A stretch of 47,047 bases of DNA, taken from NCBI RefSeq assembly GCF_028712165.1, contig NZ_JAQTQR010000011.1, positions 1-47,047 on the forward strand, in the 5' to 3' direction. Under the pieces are notes generated by a model. That model saw nothing but the letters and a program-made list of their open reading frames with translations. It was not told where the DNA came from and searched no databases. This document shows, in pieces, positions 11,271 to 16,350 of the stretch. This stretch comes from Sulfuricurvum sp. GTDB lineage: Bacteria; Campylobacterota; Campylobacteria; Campylobacterales; Sulfurimonadaceae. The translations under genes were made by a program, and so were the position numbers. Positions within the stretch are counted from its first letter, which is position 1. Each line of letters opens with the position of its first letter.

Positions 11271-11618
11271 TCAGGCAGTAAGCTGTGCTATGAGTAAAGA
11301 AGCCCGAACAGAAGCTTTAAAAGATTTCATTTTCTCTTGAGTGATGATGGCCATAGCCATTTCACGCTCTTTTTTGATCTTTGCATAGAGAGATGCTGTA
11401 GGTGTGCTCCGAGCTTCACGGATCAAGGCATGAACACTTTCATCGAATATTTGACTCTCATATGGACTAAGAGCATCATAAAGTGCCATAAAAACGGCTC
11501 TCTGCTCATCATCCATTTTGCATGAGTCATCCGTGATCTTTAAAGCGACCGTAACGGAACAATCTCGGGAGAAAATATCAAGATCAGAAGCAACCTTTTC
11601 GATCGGCTTCACGCTCAC
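11271..11618 (-). CDS. Unknown 115-residue protein, last gene of nif-accessory operon
   Basis: The GTG start overlaps the ferredoxin stop (GTGA), so translation is coupled with that gene. The protein is soluble and mostly helical by composition, with an acidic N-terminal half and a basic helical C-terminal half (YAKIKKEREMAMAIITQEKM). Two cysteines (SRDCS and DDSCK) are not in a known cluster motif. I recognise no family. Its placement suggests a function linked to ferredoxin or nitrogenase cofactor maturation, but this is only context. Confidence 0.65.
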   Translation of the reverse strand: MSVKPIEKVASDLDIFSRDCSVTVALKITDDSCKMDDEQRAVFMALYDALSPYESQIFDESVHALIREARSTPTASLYAKIKKEREMAMAIITQEKMKSFKASVRASLLIAQLTA

Positions 11619-12010
11619 CCTACTTCTTCGAGATCTTCCGGCTCTTCTTGAACAACATGCCCGACACCGCGCATCTCATTCGGAATATCTTTACGATATT
11701 TTTTCTCTCTAAATGCCGGAGATTTAGGAACACCGTTTTTCTCTCCGAGTTTATACATCTCTGCATTTAAGAAATGCGCATCAAACTCTTTGGTATACGG
11801 CATATCCCATGTAATACATCCGATACTCGGACAAATCGCAGCACATTGTGGATCATCATACACACCGACACACTCGATACACTTCTCCGGTTGAACGTAA
11901 TAGCGTTTATTACCGGTAGGGTTGTTCATATCATCCACGATCGCATTGACCGGACATTGTTGCAAACACGCATCACATGTGATACAGGTATCATCAATAA
12001 TTACAGACAT
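11615..12010 (-). CDS. Two-[4Fe-4S] ferredoxin, nif-associated (second copy)
   Basis: A 131-residue ferredoxin. The first cluster motif is CITCDACLQQCP (residues about 9-20); the second has CIEC, then an eight-residue insertion, then CAAICP, as in Allochromatium-type and YfhL-type ferredoxins. The tail shares IGCITWDMPYTKEF with the paralogue at 12481-12855. Such proteins give low-potential electrons, often to nitrogenase or its maturation enzymes. The ribosome site AAGGAG directly follows repeat copy B on the same strand. It is separated from the upstream NifX-like gene by 76 bases that hold two hairpins. Confidence 0.9.
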   Translation of the reverse strand: MSVIIDDTCITCDACLQQCPVNAIVDDMNNPTGNKRYYVQPEKCIECVGVYDDPQCAAICPSIGCITWDMPYTKEFDAHFLNAEMYKLGEKNGVPKSPAFREKKYRKDIPNEMRGVGHVVQEEPEDLEEVG

Positions 12011-12023
12011 TTTATCTCCTTAG

Positions 12024-12075
12024 CAAATCTGCCCCAAAGGGGCAAGCTTTAGTGCCTTAGCGGCAAGCGTAGCTA
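12024..12075 (-). repeat. Leader repeat copy B
   Basis: Read on the minus strand it is nearly identical to copy C over about 37 bases (core GCCGCTAAGGCACTAAAGC), ending in a TGCCCC-AAA-GGGGCA hairpin at 12030-12044. It sits in the gap between the NifX-like gene and the second ferredoxin, with the ferredoxin ribosome site about 10 bases after the hairpin. Confidence 0.7.
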
Positions 12076-12095
12076 TCTGGATGTATTCAGATAGC
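12072..12095 (-). terminator. Perfect 8-bp stem at the end of the NifX-like gene
   Basis: GCTATCTG and CAGATAGC pair around an 8-base loop, and the structure spans the NifX-like stop codon. There is no T-run on the minus strand after it, so it looks more like an RNA-processing or stability hairpin within the operon than an intrinsic terminator. Confidence 0.4.
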
Positions 12096-12470
12096 GTTAT
12101 TATCTTTGGACGTGTGAACAATACGCTGTAACCACGGCGGCGGATTGCCCAGTAAGAGCTCTTGAAGTTTGACGATCGTCTCATCGATTCGATCGTTTTC
12201 TCCAGAGCGCATCGGATATATTTTTGATGCCAACACCATTTTAGAAGCGGTTGGCCCGATTTGAGAGCAGTACATAATGTCTGCTTCTTTGACCGTACTT
12301 ATTTTATAAGCCAGTTTTTCGTGTTCGTCTTCAATCGCATCTTGGGAACTGTCCAATGTTTTGACAAATTCGGCACTATCTTCGGTGATGCGGTAAAGCT
12401 CAAAACTCTTCGACCATCCAAAATGCTGATTGACAGTGATCCCATCCGATGAAGCAAACGCGATAAGCAT
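12087..12470 (-). CDS. NifX/NafY-like FeMo-cofactor-binding family protein
   Basis: A 127-residue protein with the dinitrogenase iron-molybdenum cofactor family domain (PF02579 type): IAFASSDGITVNQHFGWSKSFELY at the N-terminus in outline, then ADIMYCSQIGPTAS and the G-rich helix. Members (NifX, NafY, the NifB C-terminus) bind FeMo-co or its precursor. It lies 10 bases after the first ferredoxin gene, with AAGGA before the ATG, and therefore in the same operon as the ferredoxin and NifU-like genes. Which cofactor it carries is unknown. Confidence 0.88.
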   Translation of the reverse strand: MLIAFASSDGITVNQHFGWSKSFELYRITEDSAEFVKTLDSSQDAIEDEHEKLAYKISTVKEADIMYCSQIGPTASKMVLASKIYPMRSGENDRIDETIVKLQELLLGNPPPWLQRIVHTSKDNNAI

Positions 12471-12480
12471 GACTTATCCT

Positions 12481-12855
12481 TTAGACCGCTACTGCTTCAC
12501 GCGCTTCGCGAGCTGCAATAGAGATATCATCACGGAAGGTTTGCGGAGCAACTTCCGGAGTCAAAACACCACGTTTTTTACTTGAACCAATAACATACTC
12601 AGAACTGTTGACATAATAGTCATTGTACTCTGCTGTATACGGCATATCCCATACGATACAACCCTCAGTTGGACATTCCGCTGCACAGGCAGGTGTTTCT
12701 GCATGACCCACGCACTCAATACATTTTTCCGGTTTTACATAGGTATATTCCCAGTCATCACGCGGTGAATCGCCTTCACTTGCGATTGCTCCTACAGGAC
12801 ATACTTCGACACAAGCGTCGCAGTTGATACATAAATCAGTTATTAATACAGCCAT
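12481..12855 (-). CDS. Two-[4Fe-4S] ferredoxin, nif-associated (first copy)
   Basis: A 124-residue ferredoxin with CINCDACVEVCP and, after about 25 residues, CIEC with an eight-residue insertion and CAAECP. The C-terminal extension holds GCIVWDMPYTAEY and a further tail. It is paralogous to the gene at 11615-12010: both have the same cluster spacing and the WDMPYT motif. It probably donates electrons to nitrogenase or cofactor-assembly steps. It starts 3 bases after the Mop-like gene, so they are co-transcribed. Confidence 0.9.
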   Translation of the reverse strand: MAVLITDLCINCDACVEVCPVGAIASEGDSPRDDWEYTYVKPEKCIECVGHAETPACAAECPTEGCIVWDMPYTAEYNDYYVNSSEYVIGSSKKRGVLTPEVAPQTFRDDISIAAREAREAVAV

Positions 12856-12858
12856 AAT

Positions 12859-13311
12859 TTACTCCTTGGTGGCTAGATATAATTTGTCTTTGCAATTTTC
12901 ATACGAGGTTGAATCCAATACCGGAAGAAGTTTGATATCGACGGCTTTAAGCAGCAAAGTTACCGAGCACCCCTCACAAAGTTCCATCCGCTCAAACGCA
13001 TCGGTTGTTATGAGAGAATTGAGTTTCCCGCATGGGGTATCGACACTCACTTCACTGAGAACCAAACCCTTACGAAAATGTTGCAATTCTCCGCTCAAGT
13101 GATTTTCGATCGATACACTTCCCTCTTTGCTTCCGGTGCAAAGTGCAATTGCCGCTTCTTGGATACGGCACTCGACTTCATCACCGATACGAAGCCATTT
13201 CGGTGCTTCGGTTTTCAGCAGTTTCAAATCCGTATTGTTTACCCGTACGGTAATGCAACTGAAAAACTCATCGCTTTTGATATCTTCAACCCGTGCAACC
13301 ATCGCATTCAT
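12859..13311 (-). CDS. Molybdenum-binding Mop/TOBE-domain protein
   Basis: A 150-residue protein made of two TOBE-like units. The first, about residues 3-62, contains VARVEDIKSDEFFSCITVRV and LRIGDEVECRIQEAAIALCTG; the second, about 63-135, has SVSIENHLSGELQHF and CEGCSVTLLLKAVDIKLLPV. Such di-Mop proteins bind molybdate or tungstate oxyanions in the cytoplasm and store or buffer them. Between a NifU-like gene and a ferredoxin gene, a job in molybdenum supply for FeMo-co is likely. Binding residues were not mapped one by one. Confidence 0.8.
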   Translation of the reverse strand: MNAMVARVEDIKSDEFFSCITVRVNNTDLKLLKTEAPKWLRIGDEVECRIQEAAIALCTGSKEGSVSIENHLSGELQHFRKGLVLSEVSVDTPCGKLNSLITTDAFERMELCEGCSVTLLLKAVDIKLLPVLDSTSYENCKDKLYLATKE

Positions 13312-13320
13312 AACACCCTC

Positions 13321-14211
13321 CTACCAAAGATAGATAACGATTCTTTTATCAATAACGTTTTCGAATTGCTCTAAAATCATTCCTGCTGTGGAAGTCGGCC
13401 CAAGATGACATCCCGAACACGCTCCCAAATAACGAAGCCAGATTTCAGGAGTATCTCCGCTGACATAATTTACAAGTTCAACCCCGCCGCCGTCACTTGC
13501 AAGTATCGGAGCGAGATTTTCAGCAATGACCATTTCGACTTTGGCCCGTTGAGAAGATTCATCCATCATCCGAAATGCGACATTTATGTCGGACGCATCA
13601 TTTTGATTACTGACATAGGTGAGGAGAGCATGGGCCTGAGCTTCTCCGGCATGAGCCGCTTTGATCATCCATTTCATAGAGTTCACTATATCGTCGTTGC
13701 GCAACAAGATTCCGAGTTTCAGTTGTGCGGTCGGCATATTCGCTTCAGCCGCAACCGTATAATGACGGATTGACAGATCTTTATCCGCCGTTACACCGAT
13801 CCCATTTTCGTACATTCCGCCCAGATAAAACGATGCCGTTTCATGCCCCATGGATGCAGCACGTTCAAACAGAGTAAATGCGGTAGAAATACTTTTAGCG
13901 ACTCCGAATCCTTTGACATACATGGTTCCGAGGTTAACCATCGCATCCGGGTTAGTATGAACCAACCCTTCCCAGATCGATTTTGCAACCATATAATCTT
14001 TGCGATCATAGGCAGCAATCGCTTCCTCCATCAATGATTGTGCTTCCATATTTTTCTCCTCGTTTCGTTTTAAATTTCTACGTAAATCGCTCATAGCCTC
14101 GTCATAGGTATCACCATACCCTTTGACTTCCGGAAAATCACAACTATAAATCTCATAACCGTCACCCTCTTCATTACTGAAATAGTGATAATGGGTACGA
14201 AGTTCATCCAT
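13321..14211 (-). CDS. HicB-like / Sel1-repeat / NifU C-terminal fusion protein
   Basis: A 296-residue protein with three parts. Residues 6-52 resemble the HicB fold (DGYEIYSCDFPEVKGYGDTYDEA). Residues about 60-225 are Sel1 repeats (LGTMYVKGFGVA, LGGMYENGIGV). The last 70 residues match the NifU C-terminal Fe-S scaffold, with GACSGCHLGP giving the CxxC pair Cys265 and Cys268. A second start is possible at 14049, where GAGGAG lies close to the ATG, which would omit the HicB part and leave 242 residues. It heads the minus-strand nif-accessory operon. A scaffold that delivers Fe-S clusters and binds a partner through Sel1 repeats is plausible. Confidence 0.82.
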   Translation of the reverse strand: MDELRTHYHYFSNEEGDGYEIYSCDFPEVKGYGDTYDEAMSDLRRNLKRNEEKNMEAQSLMEEAIAAYDRKDYMVAKSIWEGLVHTNPDAMVNLGTMYVKGFGVAKSISTAFTLFERAASMGHETASFYLGGMYENGIGVTADKDLSIRHYTVAAEANMPTAQLKLGILLRNDDIVNSMKWMIKAAHAGEAQAHALLTYVSNQNDASDINVAFRMMDESSQRAKVEMVIAENLAPILASDGGGVELVNYVSGDTPEIWLRYLGACSGCHLGPTSTAGMILEQFENVIDKRIVIYLW

Positions 14212-14240
14212 CGTTAACTCTTTTATTTATTTTGAACACA

Positions 14241-14259
14241 ATCGGAGCAAAGCCCCGAT
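14241..14259. other. Hairpin in the divergent nif-accessory promoter region
   Basis: ATCGG and CCGAT pair with a GC / GC inner stem across one mismatch. It lies next to repeat copy C in the 198-base gap between the NifU fusion and the NifX-like gene. Role unknown; it could be part of a control site for both operons. Confidence 0.35.
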
Positions 14260-14314
14260 TTGCTACGCTAGCCGCTATGGCACTAAAGCTTGCCTCATAA
14301 CGAGGCAGAATTTT
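14260..14314 (+). repeat. Leader repeat copy C
   Basis: This copy carries TGCTACGCTAGCCGCTATGG, then CACTAAAGCT and the hairpin TGCCTC-ATAAC-GAGGCA (14291-14307), followed by GAATTTT. It shares with copy B a core of about 37 bases with three mismatches. It lies 96 bases before the ATG of the plus-strand NifX-like gene. The T-run after the hairpin is short and interrupted. Confidence 0.7.
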
Positions 14315-14409
14315 CATCTCTACTTTAAATTTCTACCTTGCAATTGCCGTTCTAAATGCTATGAATAAAAAATGCATAACCGTTTTAAAATACACACAAA
14401 GGAACAGCA

Positions 14410-14805
14410 ATGATCGCAATCCCTGTGGAATCCGATAATGGTACCCCTATGAGTACCAAGCTCTTCGGTAACGCTAAATTTTTTGCTATGGTTGAACCCT
14501 CCGGCAAGGAGTACACCATCATCCCAAACGAAGGCTGCGGTAACGGTATCCAAACGGCTAACTATTTGTTAGAGCAAGGTGCTTCGTCAGCTTTATACGG
14601 TTTTTTAGGAGACGGACCATTCCACGTTATGGTTCGTGGAGGAATGGACGTTTATTGGCTTGGAAAAGAGACGATGCCTCTGAACAAAGCCATAGAAACC
14701 GCACTTTCTGAGTCGTTAGTACACGTCACGACAGAAAATGCCGCGCTCTACCTTGATCCGGGCACTGCCGCCGGTGCGTGCGAATGCGGGTGTACCCATG
14801 ACTGA
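14410..14805 (+). CDS. NifX-like protein with Cys-rich C-terminus
   Basis: A 131-residue protein of the dinitrogenase iron-molybdenum cofactor family: MIAIPVESDNGTPMSTKLFG at the N-terminus, ALYGFLGDGPFHVM in the middle and a G-rich segment. Unlike the NifX-like protein at 12087-12470, it has an internal GCGNG and ends with ACECGCTHD, three cysteines that could bind a metal or cluster. AAAGGAAC precedes the ATG. The stop overlaps the next gene's start. It heads the plus-strand nif-accessory operon. Confidence 0.86.
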   Translation: MIAIPVESDNGTPMSTKLFGNAKFFAMVEPSGKEYTIIPNEGCGNGIQTANYLLEQGASSALYGFLGDGPFHVMVRGGMDVYWLGKETMPLNKAIETALSESLVHVTTENAALYLDPGTAAGACECGCTHD

Positions 14806-15025
14806 AGTTATCACATCCGAGATGGAAGAAATTCGTCGCCTAATCGCCGAAACCGTCGCTAAACGCAATGCCCTTAAAACCGAAATGGCACAATGGTACG
14901 AAGCACACAGCAAACGCTTTGAGCGAACCAATGAGCTCATCACTGTTGATTCGACGTTGAGTGAACTCGATAGCCATTACAAACGTTTATGGGATTATCA
15001 TAACGGCCGTTCAAGAGCGTCATGA
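14798..15025 (+). CDS. Small helical protein, unknown, in nif-accessory operon
   Basis: A 75-residue protein, strongly helical and probably coiled-coil (EMEEIRRLIAETVAKRNALK). The ATG overlaps the NifX-like stop by 8 bases, supporting this start over an upstream in-frame one. Small helical proteins of similar size (the Rop-like/CCE_0567 group) occur next to NifX in other nif clusters, but the HDLAE motif of that group is not seen, so I leave it unnamed. Its end overlaps the next gene by 4 bases (ATGA). Confidence 0.7.
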   Translation: MTEVITSEMEEIRRLIAETVAKRNALKTEMAQWYEAHSKRFERTNELITVDSTLSELDSHYKRLWDYHNGRSRAS

Positions 15026-15621
15026 GCACCTTTTCATCCGATGGACGTCTGCTTACCGATATCGGTGAAATCGACCAATATCGGCGGATTTTAGACAAAG
15101 ACAGCGTCAAAAGCGGTGAACCCCATTGGGCAAGTATGGGGAAAAATACGATCACCCTGTTTCAGGTTTTGATCGATCAGGATTTGACCCATTTGGTGAT
15201 GGTTCTTCGCCATTATCCCAAATACATTGAGGCGGTGTGTGAACATTTTCGTTATGCTTACAGTTACAGCGAAAACAGTGCAAATATTGACGCGGCATCC
15301 GAACTTTTGGAGATGGGCGAACCCTATTTCACACGACAATTTGTCCGTAATGTCATGCGAAAACTCCCTCGGATCGAGAGTGATGATCGTGATGCGTTAC
15401 AGACCTTTATCGATCAGATTAATGAGAATCAACACCGATGGCATCCGATTATTACGATGCATTATCGCGCTATGATTAAACATGCAATTAATCAATCCCT
15501 CCTCCATCCGCTGCAACGGATTGTTCTGGAGAAAAAAATTGCTTCGATACAAGAAGTGATCACCTATGATTACGAAGCGAGTGATCGTGATTCGAATCTT
15601 GATATACCGTATATGACATAA
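15022..15621 (+). CDS. Unknown 199-residue protein in nif-accessory operon
   Basis: The ATG overlaps the previous stop. The protein is soluble, helical and rich in His, Tyr and Asp (HRWHPIITMHYRAMIKHAIN), with one cysteine, and has no cluster motif or signal peptide. I do not recognise a family. It lies third in a tightly coupled operon headed by a NifX-like gene, which points to nitrogenase maturation or protection as the setting. Function otherwise unknown. Confidence 0.7.
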   Translation: MSTFSSDGRLLTDIGEIDQYRRILDKDSVKSGEPHWASMGKNTITLFQVLIDQDLTHLVMVLRHYPKYIEAVCEHFRYAYSYSENSANIDAASELLEMGEPYFTRQFVRNVMRKLPRIESDDRDALQTFIDQINENQHRWHPIITMHYRAMIKHAINQSLLHPLQRIVLEKKIASIQEVITYDYEASDRDSNLDIPYMT

Positions 15622-15640
15622 ACTTAAGGAGACTATTATT

Positions 15641-16126
15641 ATGAATGAAAAACTACGAAGTGAAGTTTTAAAACACGCACGAAACGCTTTTGAACGGGCA
15701 TGTACATTACATGATAATGAACGCATCGAAGTGTATGTTTATGATGGTGAGGTCAAAACAAGCGACGTTTTAAGCGAAGATGAAAAAATCGTTTACAGCC
15801 CAAACCGTATTTTATGCTATCAGGTATGGGGACATGATTACCTCGAAGATGAAATCAGTGCGTGGATCGATCATGCCCGCCAAGAGATCAGTCCTAAACC
15901 GCTTGAAGAGAGTATTGTCGAAACTCTAAACAACGTTGCCGCTGCAAAAGGTGTATCAAAAGACGAAGTGAGTTCATATGAAGTATTTGCCAACCTGCGA
16001 ATGGATCAAATCGAACAGATCGAACATGCCATTATCGAATACTGGTGGGACAACAAAGAGATCGAAAATGCGAAGTCATTGGCATTGCTACAAATCGACG
16101 AAGCCCTAGAGAGTATGGAAGGATGA
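15641..16126 (+). CDS. Unknown 161-residue protein in nif-accessory operon
   Basis: A soluble acidic protein. Features seen are an N-terminal helix with HARNAFERACTLHDNERIEV, a middle segment YQVWGHDYLEDEISAWIDHA and a C-terminal helical region around IIEYWWDNKEIENAKSLALL. No known domain is recognised. AAGGAG lies 11 bases before the ATG. Its stop overlaps the next start (ATGA). It follows the 199-residue protein by 19 bases. Confidence 0.68.
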   Translation: MNEKLRSEVLKHARNAFERACTLHDNERIEVYVYDGEVKTSDVLSEDEKIVYSPNRILCYQVWGHDYLEDEISAWIDHARQEISPKPLEESIVETLNNVAAAKGVSKDEVSSYEVFANLRMDQIEQIEHAIIEYWWDNKEIENAKSLALLQIDEALESMEG

Positions 16127-16350
16127 TCCTCACGCTCCGTTCTTTGGCGGATACCGTACATATCGATATTACCGCAGATCAGTTCAAACGTCTGCGCGAT
16201 CCGCAGATCACTAACGATGAAATTAGTGACATTGCCGCTTTATGCGGCTGTGATGCTGCATTATTAAAAGAATATGTTGATGATCTGAAACGTGCTATGA
16301 AAGAGACGATAGAGCTTGATGGATCGTGTGATTATTCCGATCATCTTTAA
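16123..16350 (+). CDS. Small unknown protein, end of nif-accessory operon
   Basis: A 75-residue protein beginning MILTLRSLADTVHIDITADQ. It overlaps the preceding gene by 4 bases, which decides the start. It has a CGC pair (ALCGCDAALLKEYVDDLK) in a predicted helical region and an acidic tail with one more Cys. No family recognised. It closes the plus-strand operon; a 70-base AT-rich gap with a promoter follows. Confidence 0.62.
   Translation: MILTLRSLADTVHIDITADQFKRLRDPQITNDEISDIAALCGCDAALLKEYVDDLKRAMKETIELDGSCDYSDHL

Follow-up and report, generated by a model that had tools for sequence, protein, structure and literature searches.

A nif-linked accessory module in Sulfuricurvum and its putative connection to a MoxR AAA+/DUF2201-VWA machine

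Our analysis of a 47,047-nucleotide stretch of Sulfuricurvum sp. DNA (the window, which is contig C34 of a 2.72-Mb genome that is 99.94% complete) suggests that two divergent operons form a nif accessory module and that one of their products, 15022, acts as a subunit of, or client adaptor for, a machine that is dedicated to nitrogenase and composed of a MoxR AAA+ ATPase and a DUF2201-VWA protein. We hold this reading at about even confidence; the nif link of the module is strong. The gene structure, the purifying selection, the restriction to nif genomes, the conservation of the promoters, the paralogy of 15022 and its joint presence and absence with the MoxR-VWA genes were all obtained directly by computation. 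Genes without a family name are called by their first coordinate in the window.

Organization of the two operons

The operons occupy positions 11271-14211 (minus strand) and 14410-16350 (plus strand) and are separated by an intergenic gap of 198 bp (14212-14409). An earlier note had described divergent nif-accessory operons containing five unrecognised small proteins, and every gene was located as claimed (Table 1); the tight coupling it had read from overlapping stops and starts was confirmed as 4-nt, 8-nt and ATGA overlaps. Its "NifU fusion" needs a narrower description, since the NifU-type domain is real but consists only of the C-terminal Nfu domain, carried on Sel1 repeats. The 14410 protein has a Cys-rich C-terminal tail, CxCGC[TS]H, that is present in many orthologues. 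Judged by 15022, the genome is closest to Sulfuricurvum MAGs (88-90% sequence identity). The rest of the nif set of this genome lies on other contigs, with nifD on C53, a NifE-like gene and a second nifX copy on C43, nifB, nifV and a PF05082 gene on C76, and pieces of NifA on C20 and C109.

Table 1. Genes and putative promoters of the two divergent operons
Feature	Position	Strand	Evidence or remark
Sel1 repeats + C-terminal NifU/Nfu domain protein, 296 aa	13321-14211	-	Pfam Sel1 61.9 bits, NifU 38.5 bits
TOBE/Mop domain protein, presumed molybdate binding, 150 aa	12859-13311	-	PF03459 28.5 bits, TIGR00638 39.7 bits
2[4Fe-4S] ferredoxin, YfhL-like, 124 aa	12481-12855	-	Fer4_7 38.6 bits; kept in orthologous loci
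NifX-type protein, 127 aa	12087-12470	-	TIGR02663 110.7 bits (cut-off 112), PF02579 59 bits
Second 2[4Fe-4S] ferredoxin, 131 aa	11615-12010	-	Fer4_7 32.7 bits
11271, 115 aa, GTG start, no known family	11271-11618	-	4-nt overlap with second ferredoxin gene
Putative sigma54-type (-24/-12) promoter TAGAACGGCAATTGCA, minus-strand operon	14339-14354	-	Motif search, conservation
Putative weaker sigma54-type promoter ATGAATAAAAAATGCA, plus-strand operon	14361-14376	+	Relaxed pattern only
Divergent NifX-like (Nitro_FeMo-Co) protein, 131 aa	14410-14805	+	PF02579 29.4 bits
14798, 75 aa, no known family	14798-15025	+	8-nt overlap with 14410 gene
15022, 199 aa, no known family	15022-15621	+	ATGA overlap with 14798
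15641, 161 aa, no known family	15641-16126	+	
16123, 75 aa, no known family	16123-16350	+	ATGA overlap with 15641

Coding status and family searches

The five genes 11271, 14798, 15022, 15641 and 16123 gave no Pfam match above cut-off, and the first four gave none against NCBIfam (a search that covered those four) or against sequence profiles of the PDB. Between Sulfuricurvum orthologues the pN/pS ratio was 0.06-0.27 for these four genes (0.06-0.25 for 14798, for which 26 loci were aligned) and 0.31-0.52 for 16123. Purifying selection thus acts on all five and, because their ratios span 0.06-0.52, we regard the five open reading frames as true coding genes.

Sigma54-type promoters in the intergenic gap

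The gap contains two back-to-back motifs, TAGAACGGCAATTGCA and the weaker ATGAATAAAAAATGCA, each of which conforms to the sigma54 (-24/-12) type. Among 26 orthologous gaps a plus-strand site was found in 22, a minus-strand site in 22 and both in 18, against expectations of 0.03 and 0 in Markov-shuffled gaps; ATGAATAAAAAATGCA itself is missed by the stricter pattern used on the orthologous gaps and is therefore uncounted there. Across the whole genome a stricter pattern gave 12 matches, compared with 5 for the reversed control, and the matches just upstream of starts belong to nifH, nifB, a NifU-like gene, a Tpx-like gene, the gene of a 74-aa Cys-rich protein and the minus-strand operon. The motif lies approximately 35-73 bp upstream of the nifH, nifB and nifU starts. 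Because the motif count is not significant within the window alone, the assignment of TAGAACGGCAATTGCA as a promoter rests on position and conservation. No NifA upstream activator site (TGT-N10-ACA) was found in the gap. Another candidate, TGGCACTAAAGCTTGC on the plus strand near 14278, was dropped in favor of the conserved sites because its spacer is one base too long and it lies inside a 33-nt repeat. Since the promoter type is common to nifH, nifB and nifU, we predict from the sequence motifs that both operons are co-expressed with these genes from sigma54 (NifA-type) promoters.

Restriction to genomes containing nitrogenase

The phylum-wide survey covered 11271, 15022 and 15641 in 249 Campylobacterota genomes, 37 of which have a nifD match (33 of these above the family cut-off). 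The gene 11271 was found in 12 genomes (by a profile search), 15022 in 9 and 15641 in 10, and every one of these genomes has a nifD match; a tenth 15022 match, in G239, comes solely through the approximately 235-aa paralogue described below and was left out of the count. The co-occurrence with nifD gives hypergeometric p values of 1.4e-8 to 2e-11 for the three genes, which are optimistic because the genomes are related. Homologues residing mainly in genomes without nitrogenase, the outcome that the earlier note had set against its own proposal, were looked for and the opposite was found. Its suggestion that the five may be nitrogenase factors is supported, as far as the nif link goes, by this distribution for 11271, 15022 and 15641 and by the promoter type that the operons have in common with nifH, nifB and nifU; a role in assembly or protection is a possibility. 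For two of the five the evidence reaches further, tying 15022 to a nif-restricted MoxR-VWA set and 11271 to a nif-linked ClpX.

The module's contig differs from those carrying nifDK, nifEN and nifB, and unrelated genes surround it, as would be expected of hitch-hikers that sit beside nif genes and have no role in nitrogenase function. We consider this very improbable, given that the restriction to nif genomes also holds in the Sulfurospirillum-type G206, in which the genes are distant from nifD, that the sigma54 promoters are conserved, and that in G224 a fragmented nifD is accompanied by module genes fragmented likewise. A search of a plasmid collection with 15022 gave no match. Because 15022 is found in just 9 of the 37 nif-positive genomes, it is dispensable for nitrogenase in general; the proposed machine would be optional, present in about a quarter of nif-positive genomes and perhaps tied to habitat, for example to oxygen or metal supply.

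Association of 15022 with a MoxR-VWA gene set

On contig C55 of the same genome a MoxR-type AAA+ gene is followed by a DUF2201 VWA gene, the gene of an approximately 235-aa protein and a NifO/ArsC-like gene of the TIGR01616 family. Profile alignment of 15022 with the approximately 235-aa family (hhalign, 99.7%, E 4e-27) identifies the two as paralogues by sequence, a relationship that is new here. The partner pair has AAA_5 and DUF2201 domains, and at L041 it carries a Walker A motif (GSPGIGKS), a Walker B motif (ILFLDEL) and a MIDAS motif (DRSMS), all of which concern the C55 partner genes and not the window.

The gene order AAA, VWA, approximately 235-aa protein, 15022 is found in L033, L035, L068, L072, L077 and L079, and in Arcobacter-, Sulfurospirillum- and related genomes 15022 lies within the MoxR-VWA operon or a few kb from it (the same six loci, L071 and L075). 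In the Sulfuricurvum group 15022 belongs to the operon seen in the window, and the MoxR-VWA set is a few kb off in L050, L053, L066 and L067. Once a twelfth match at chance level (G235) is set aside, 11 genomes encode the approximately 235-aa protein; each of them is nif-positive, and 9 of the 11 also have 15022; the exceptions are G239, whose contig begins just before 15641, and the decayed G224. The type B MoxR-VWA set, the approximately 235-aa protein and 15022 share one common genome set, and four genomes that keep other module genes (G133, G176, G217 and G163) are without 15022, the approximately 235-aa protein and the type B VWA gene. In a tree of 43 DUF2201 proteins the type A and type B clades, with 100/100 support, have members solely from nif-positive genomes, and a mixed set of housekeeping copies falls outside them. 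The common genomes and the shared operons make 15022 a candidate for a stable component of the machine. Two observations count against this reading: in the window 15022 does not adjoin the MoxR genes, and in nearly all loci no sigma54 motif was found directly upstream of the MoxR genes.

The structure model of 15022 is all-helical, and its comparison by Foldseek and VIA gave no clear match and no known adaptor, which is not proof of a new fold. Every homologue listed ends in an invariant DRDxxLDIPYM followed by one residue; this end belongs to a region modelled as disordered and would fit a docking tail.

Redoxin-like genes occur nearby in several loci and the Tpx-like gene bears the same sigma54-type promoter, so that the small proteins could instead be stress factors, not adaptors, that shield nitrogenase, or the proteins assembling it, against oxygen or oxidants. 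We judge this quite improbable: 11271 and 15022 show no redox motif beyond a single conserved Cys in each, the genes sharing their operons encode proteins that handle metals and cofactors, and 15022 is tightly linked to MoxR-VWA.

11271 and the nif-linked ClpX

The 11271 protein has an invariant Cys33 in a DDSCKM motif. Its homologues follow clpX in L037, L039 and L040, where the clpX stop overlaps or touches their start, and come after 15022 in L033, L076, L078, L080 and L081; the clpX gene concerned is the nif-linked second copy, and a second ClpX was found in 22 of 37 nif-positive and in 0 of 6 nif-negative genomes tested. As cited in PMC3916325, ClpX/ClpXP controls NifB and NifEN levels in Azotobacter vinelandii. 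These results are consistent with proteolytic quality control, in which 11271, and possibly 15022, would be specificity factors for a second ClpX that removes unwanted NifB/NifEN, as is reported for ClpX2 of A. vinelandii. We consider this unlikely, as 15022 tracks the MoxR-VWA set and not ClpX, a second ClpX being present without 15022 in many genomes and 15022 without a second ClpX in the Sulfurospirillum-type G056 and G206. The 11271 protein itself is a candidate adaptor for a nif-linked AAA+ machine, with which both of its settings (beside ClpX and beside 15022) are compatible. ClpX2 of A. vinelandii and the NifA-regulated clpX of Azoarcus resemble the copy described here in linking a second ClpX to nitrogen fixation, whereas the passages covered in PMC3916325 mention no small coupled gene like 11271.

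Proposed mechanism and comparison with known systems

In the mechanism that we propose, the module would supply metal and cofactor handlers (Mop, two ferredoxins, NifX, the Cys-tailed NifX-like protein and the Nfu domain) together with 15022, and C55 would supply the ATPase, the VWA protein and the approximately 235-aa protein as a second adaptor. The adaptors would deliver to the MoxR ring one of the proteins of nitrogenase assembly (apo-NifDK, NifEN or NifB), whose remodelling at the expense of ATP would allow a metal cluster to enter or a damaged one to leave, on the NorQD pattern; 11271 would be a further adaptor serving the nif-linked ClpX or the MoxR machine. The physical complex, its client and the metal step are what we infer.

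MoxR-VWA systems can also activate enzymes instead of metallating them, as CbbQO does, and this counts against a metal step. The NorQD pair drives metal insertion (PMC13036017, PMC9976466) and the CoxDE pair serves cluster assembly (PMC4240915). Judged by family, the proteins encoded alongside 15022 are handlers of molybdenum, Fe-S clusters and FeMo-co-type ligands. Taken together, these metal roles and partner families make a nitrogenase-dedicated MoxR-VWA machine for cluster insertion, activation or repair the reading we consider most likely. The narrower proposal, that some Campylobacterota insert or repair nitrogenase metal clusters through a dedicated MoxR-VWA pair with 15022 and the approximately 235-aa protein as adaptors, in an ATP-driven step outside the known nif pathway, is tentative and rather doubtful.

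One near comparison is NorQ-NorD, which inserts FeB into nitric oxide reductase and likewise pairs a MoxR-type ATPase gene with a VWA gene in linkage to the accessory genes of one metalloenzyme; here, however, the VWA protein belongs to the DUF2201 type, the set has two additional members (15022 and the approximately 235-aa family) and the presumed client is nitrogenase. CoxD-CoxE-CoxF, which assembles the MoCu cluster of CO dehydrogenase, is similar at the level of the gene set in having a MoxR ATPase, a VWA protein, a third component and a molybdenum enzyme, but its target is different. The rubisco activase CbbQ-CbbO is also a MoxR-VWA pair devoted to one enzyme, although it activates a finished enzyme, and we know of no third subunit resembling 15022 in it.

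To our knowledge, no remodelling ATPase of the MoxR type is dedicated to nitrogenase assembly in the established pathway. Within the literature covered on MoxR and nitrogenase, DUF2201 and nitrogen fixation, and Campylobacterota nif operons (preprints and most subscription papers lying outside it), nothing similar is described. Nitrogenase assembly is a target for crop and synthetic biology; if the proposal is true, a nif-confined MoxR-VWA pair that has adaptors of its own would introduce a new type of step, be it cluster insertion, activation or repair, and families nameless in Pfam and NCBIfam would gain their first functional leads.

The remaining genes of the module

By operon and promoter 14798, 15641 and 16123 are nif accessory genes, 15641 by its distribution as well. 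The position of 14798 recalls the small nif genes of the NifX-associated families PF05082 and TIGR02935. An assignment to PF05082 (Rop-like) was rejected, as 14798 has no Pfam match and aligns at 0.3% (hhalign) with the PF05082 members of the phylum (n=20); the genome encodes both families elsewhere, its PF05082 gene lying at C76:6682, apart from 14798. A fixed position beside the NifX-like 14410 in approximately 19 loci suggests that small proteins of the module may be cofactor or metal carriers acting alongside NifX and Mop without any AAA+ machine, most plausibly in the case of 14798 and 15641; we think this rather improbable, since the alignments of these two show no conserved metal-ligand cluster.

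The 15641 protein has a highly confident alpha/beta model (pLDDT 91). This fold found no clear counterpart in Foldseek or VIA comparisons, which again does not prove it new; against the C-terminal domain of Fe/Mn superoxide dismutase the best VIA Z was 5.2 (rmsd 4.2 over 96 residues) and the Foldseek E was 0.26. Homologues of 16123 were seen only in Sulfuricurvum, at 8 loci besides the window, and the protein has a conserved CDY[ST]DH tail.

Joint decay and placement of module copies

The nif genes and the module have decayed jointly in genome G224, where only fragments are left of nifA, nifB, the MoxR-VWA set, the ferredoxins, nifX and 15641. The homologs of 14798 and 15641 in genome G176 are broken by a stop and a change of frame, and this interruption reflects either decay or an assembly error. 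One module-bearing contig (locus L055) is assigned in its record to Candidatus Cloacimonadota; because its 15022 homolog is 59% identical to that of the window and has the same neighboring genes, this contig was probably mis-binned.

Features within and beside the module

The type A MoxR-VWA pair, distinct from the pair linked to 15022, is a second one restricted to nif genomes and adjoins the module in several of them. Within the module, the NifX-like protein ends at its C-terminus in a conserved CxCGC[TS]H[DE] tail, a possible metal-binding site. A 33-nt inverted repeat has one arm in the space separating the NifX gene from the ferredoxin gene and its other arm inside the divergent gap, and no further copies occur within the window.

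Coordinates of the features (bare numbers are window positions)
Feature	Position	Remark
NifX-like gene	14410-14805	
Inverted repeat	12041-12073; 14262-14294	arms 94% complementary
Fragmented module (L032)	G224:C1:1414000-1433000	
Interrupted homologs, G176	L029:10801-11549	
Type A MoxR-VWA pair	L029:11546-13749	further loci L133, L130, L132
Cys-rich protein gene (L086)	G000:C53:22534	74 aa
Tpx-like peroxiredoxin gene (L083)	G000:C20:2121	

Other genes behind sigma54-type sites

The Cys-rich protein (MEHHVVIEKLCSC...GGGCGCKH) is encoded by a gene starting 34 bp downstream of a sigma54-type site that resembles those of nifH and nifB. The same promoter type precedes the Tpx-like peroxiredoxin gene, which adjoins the N-terminal part of nifA.
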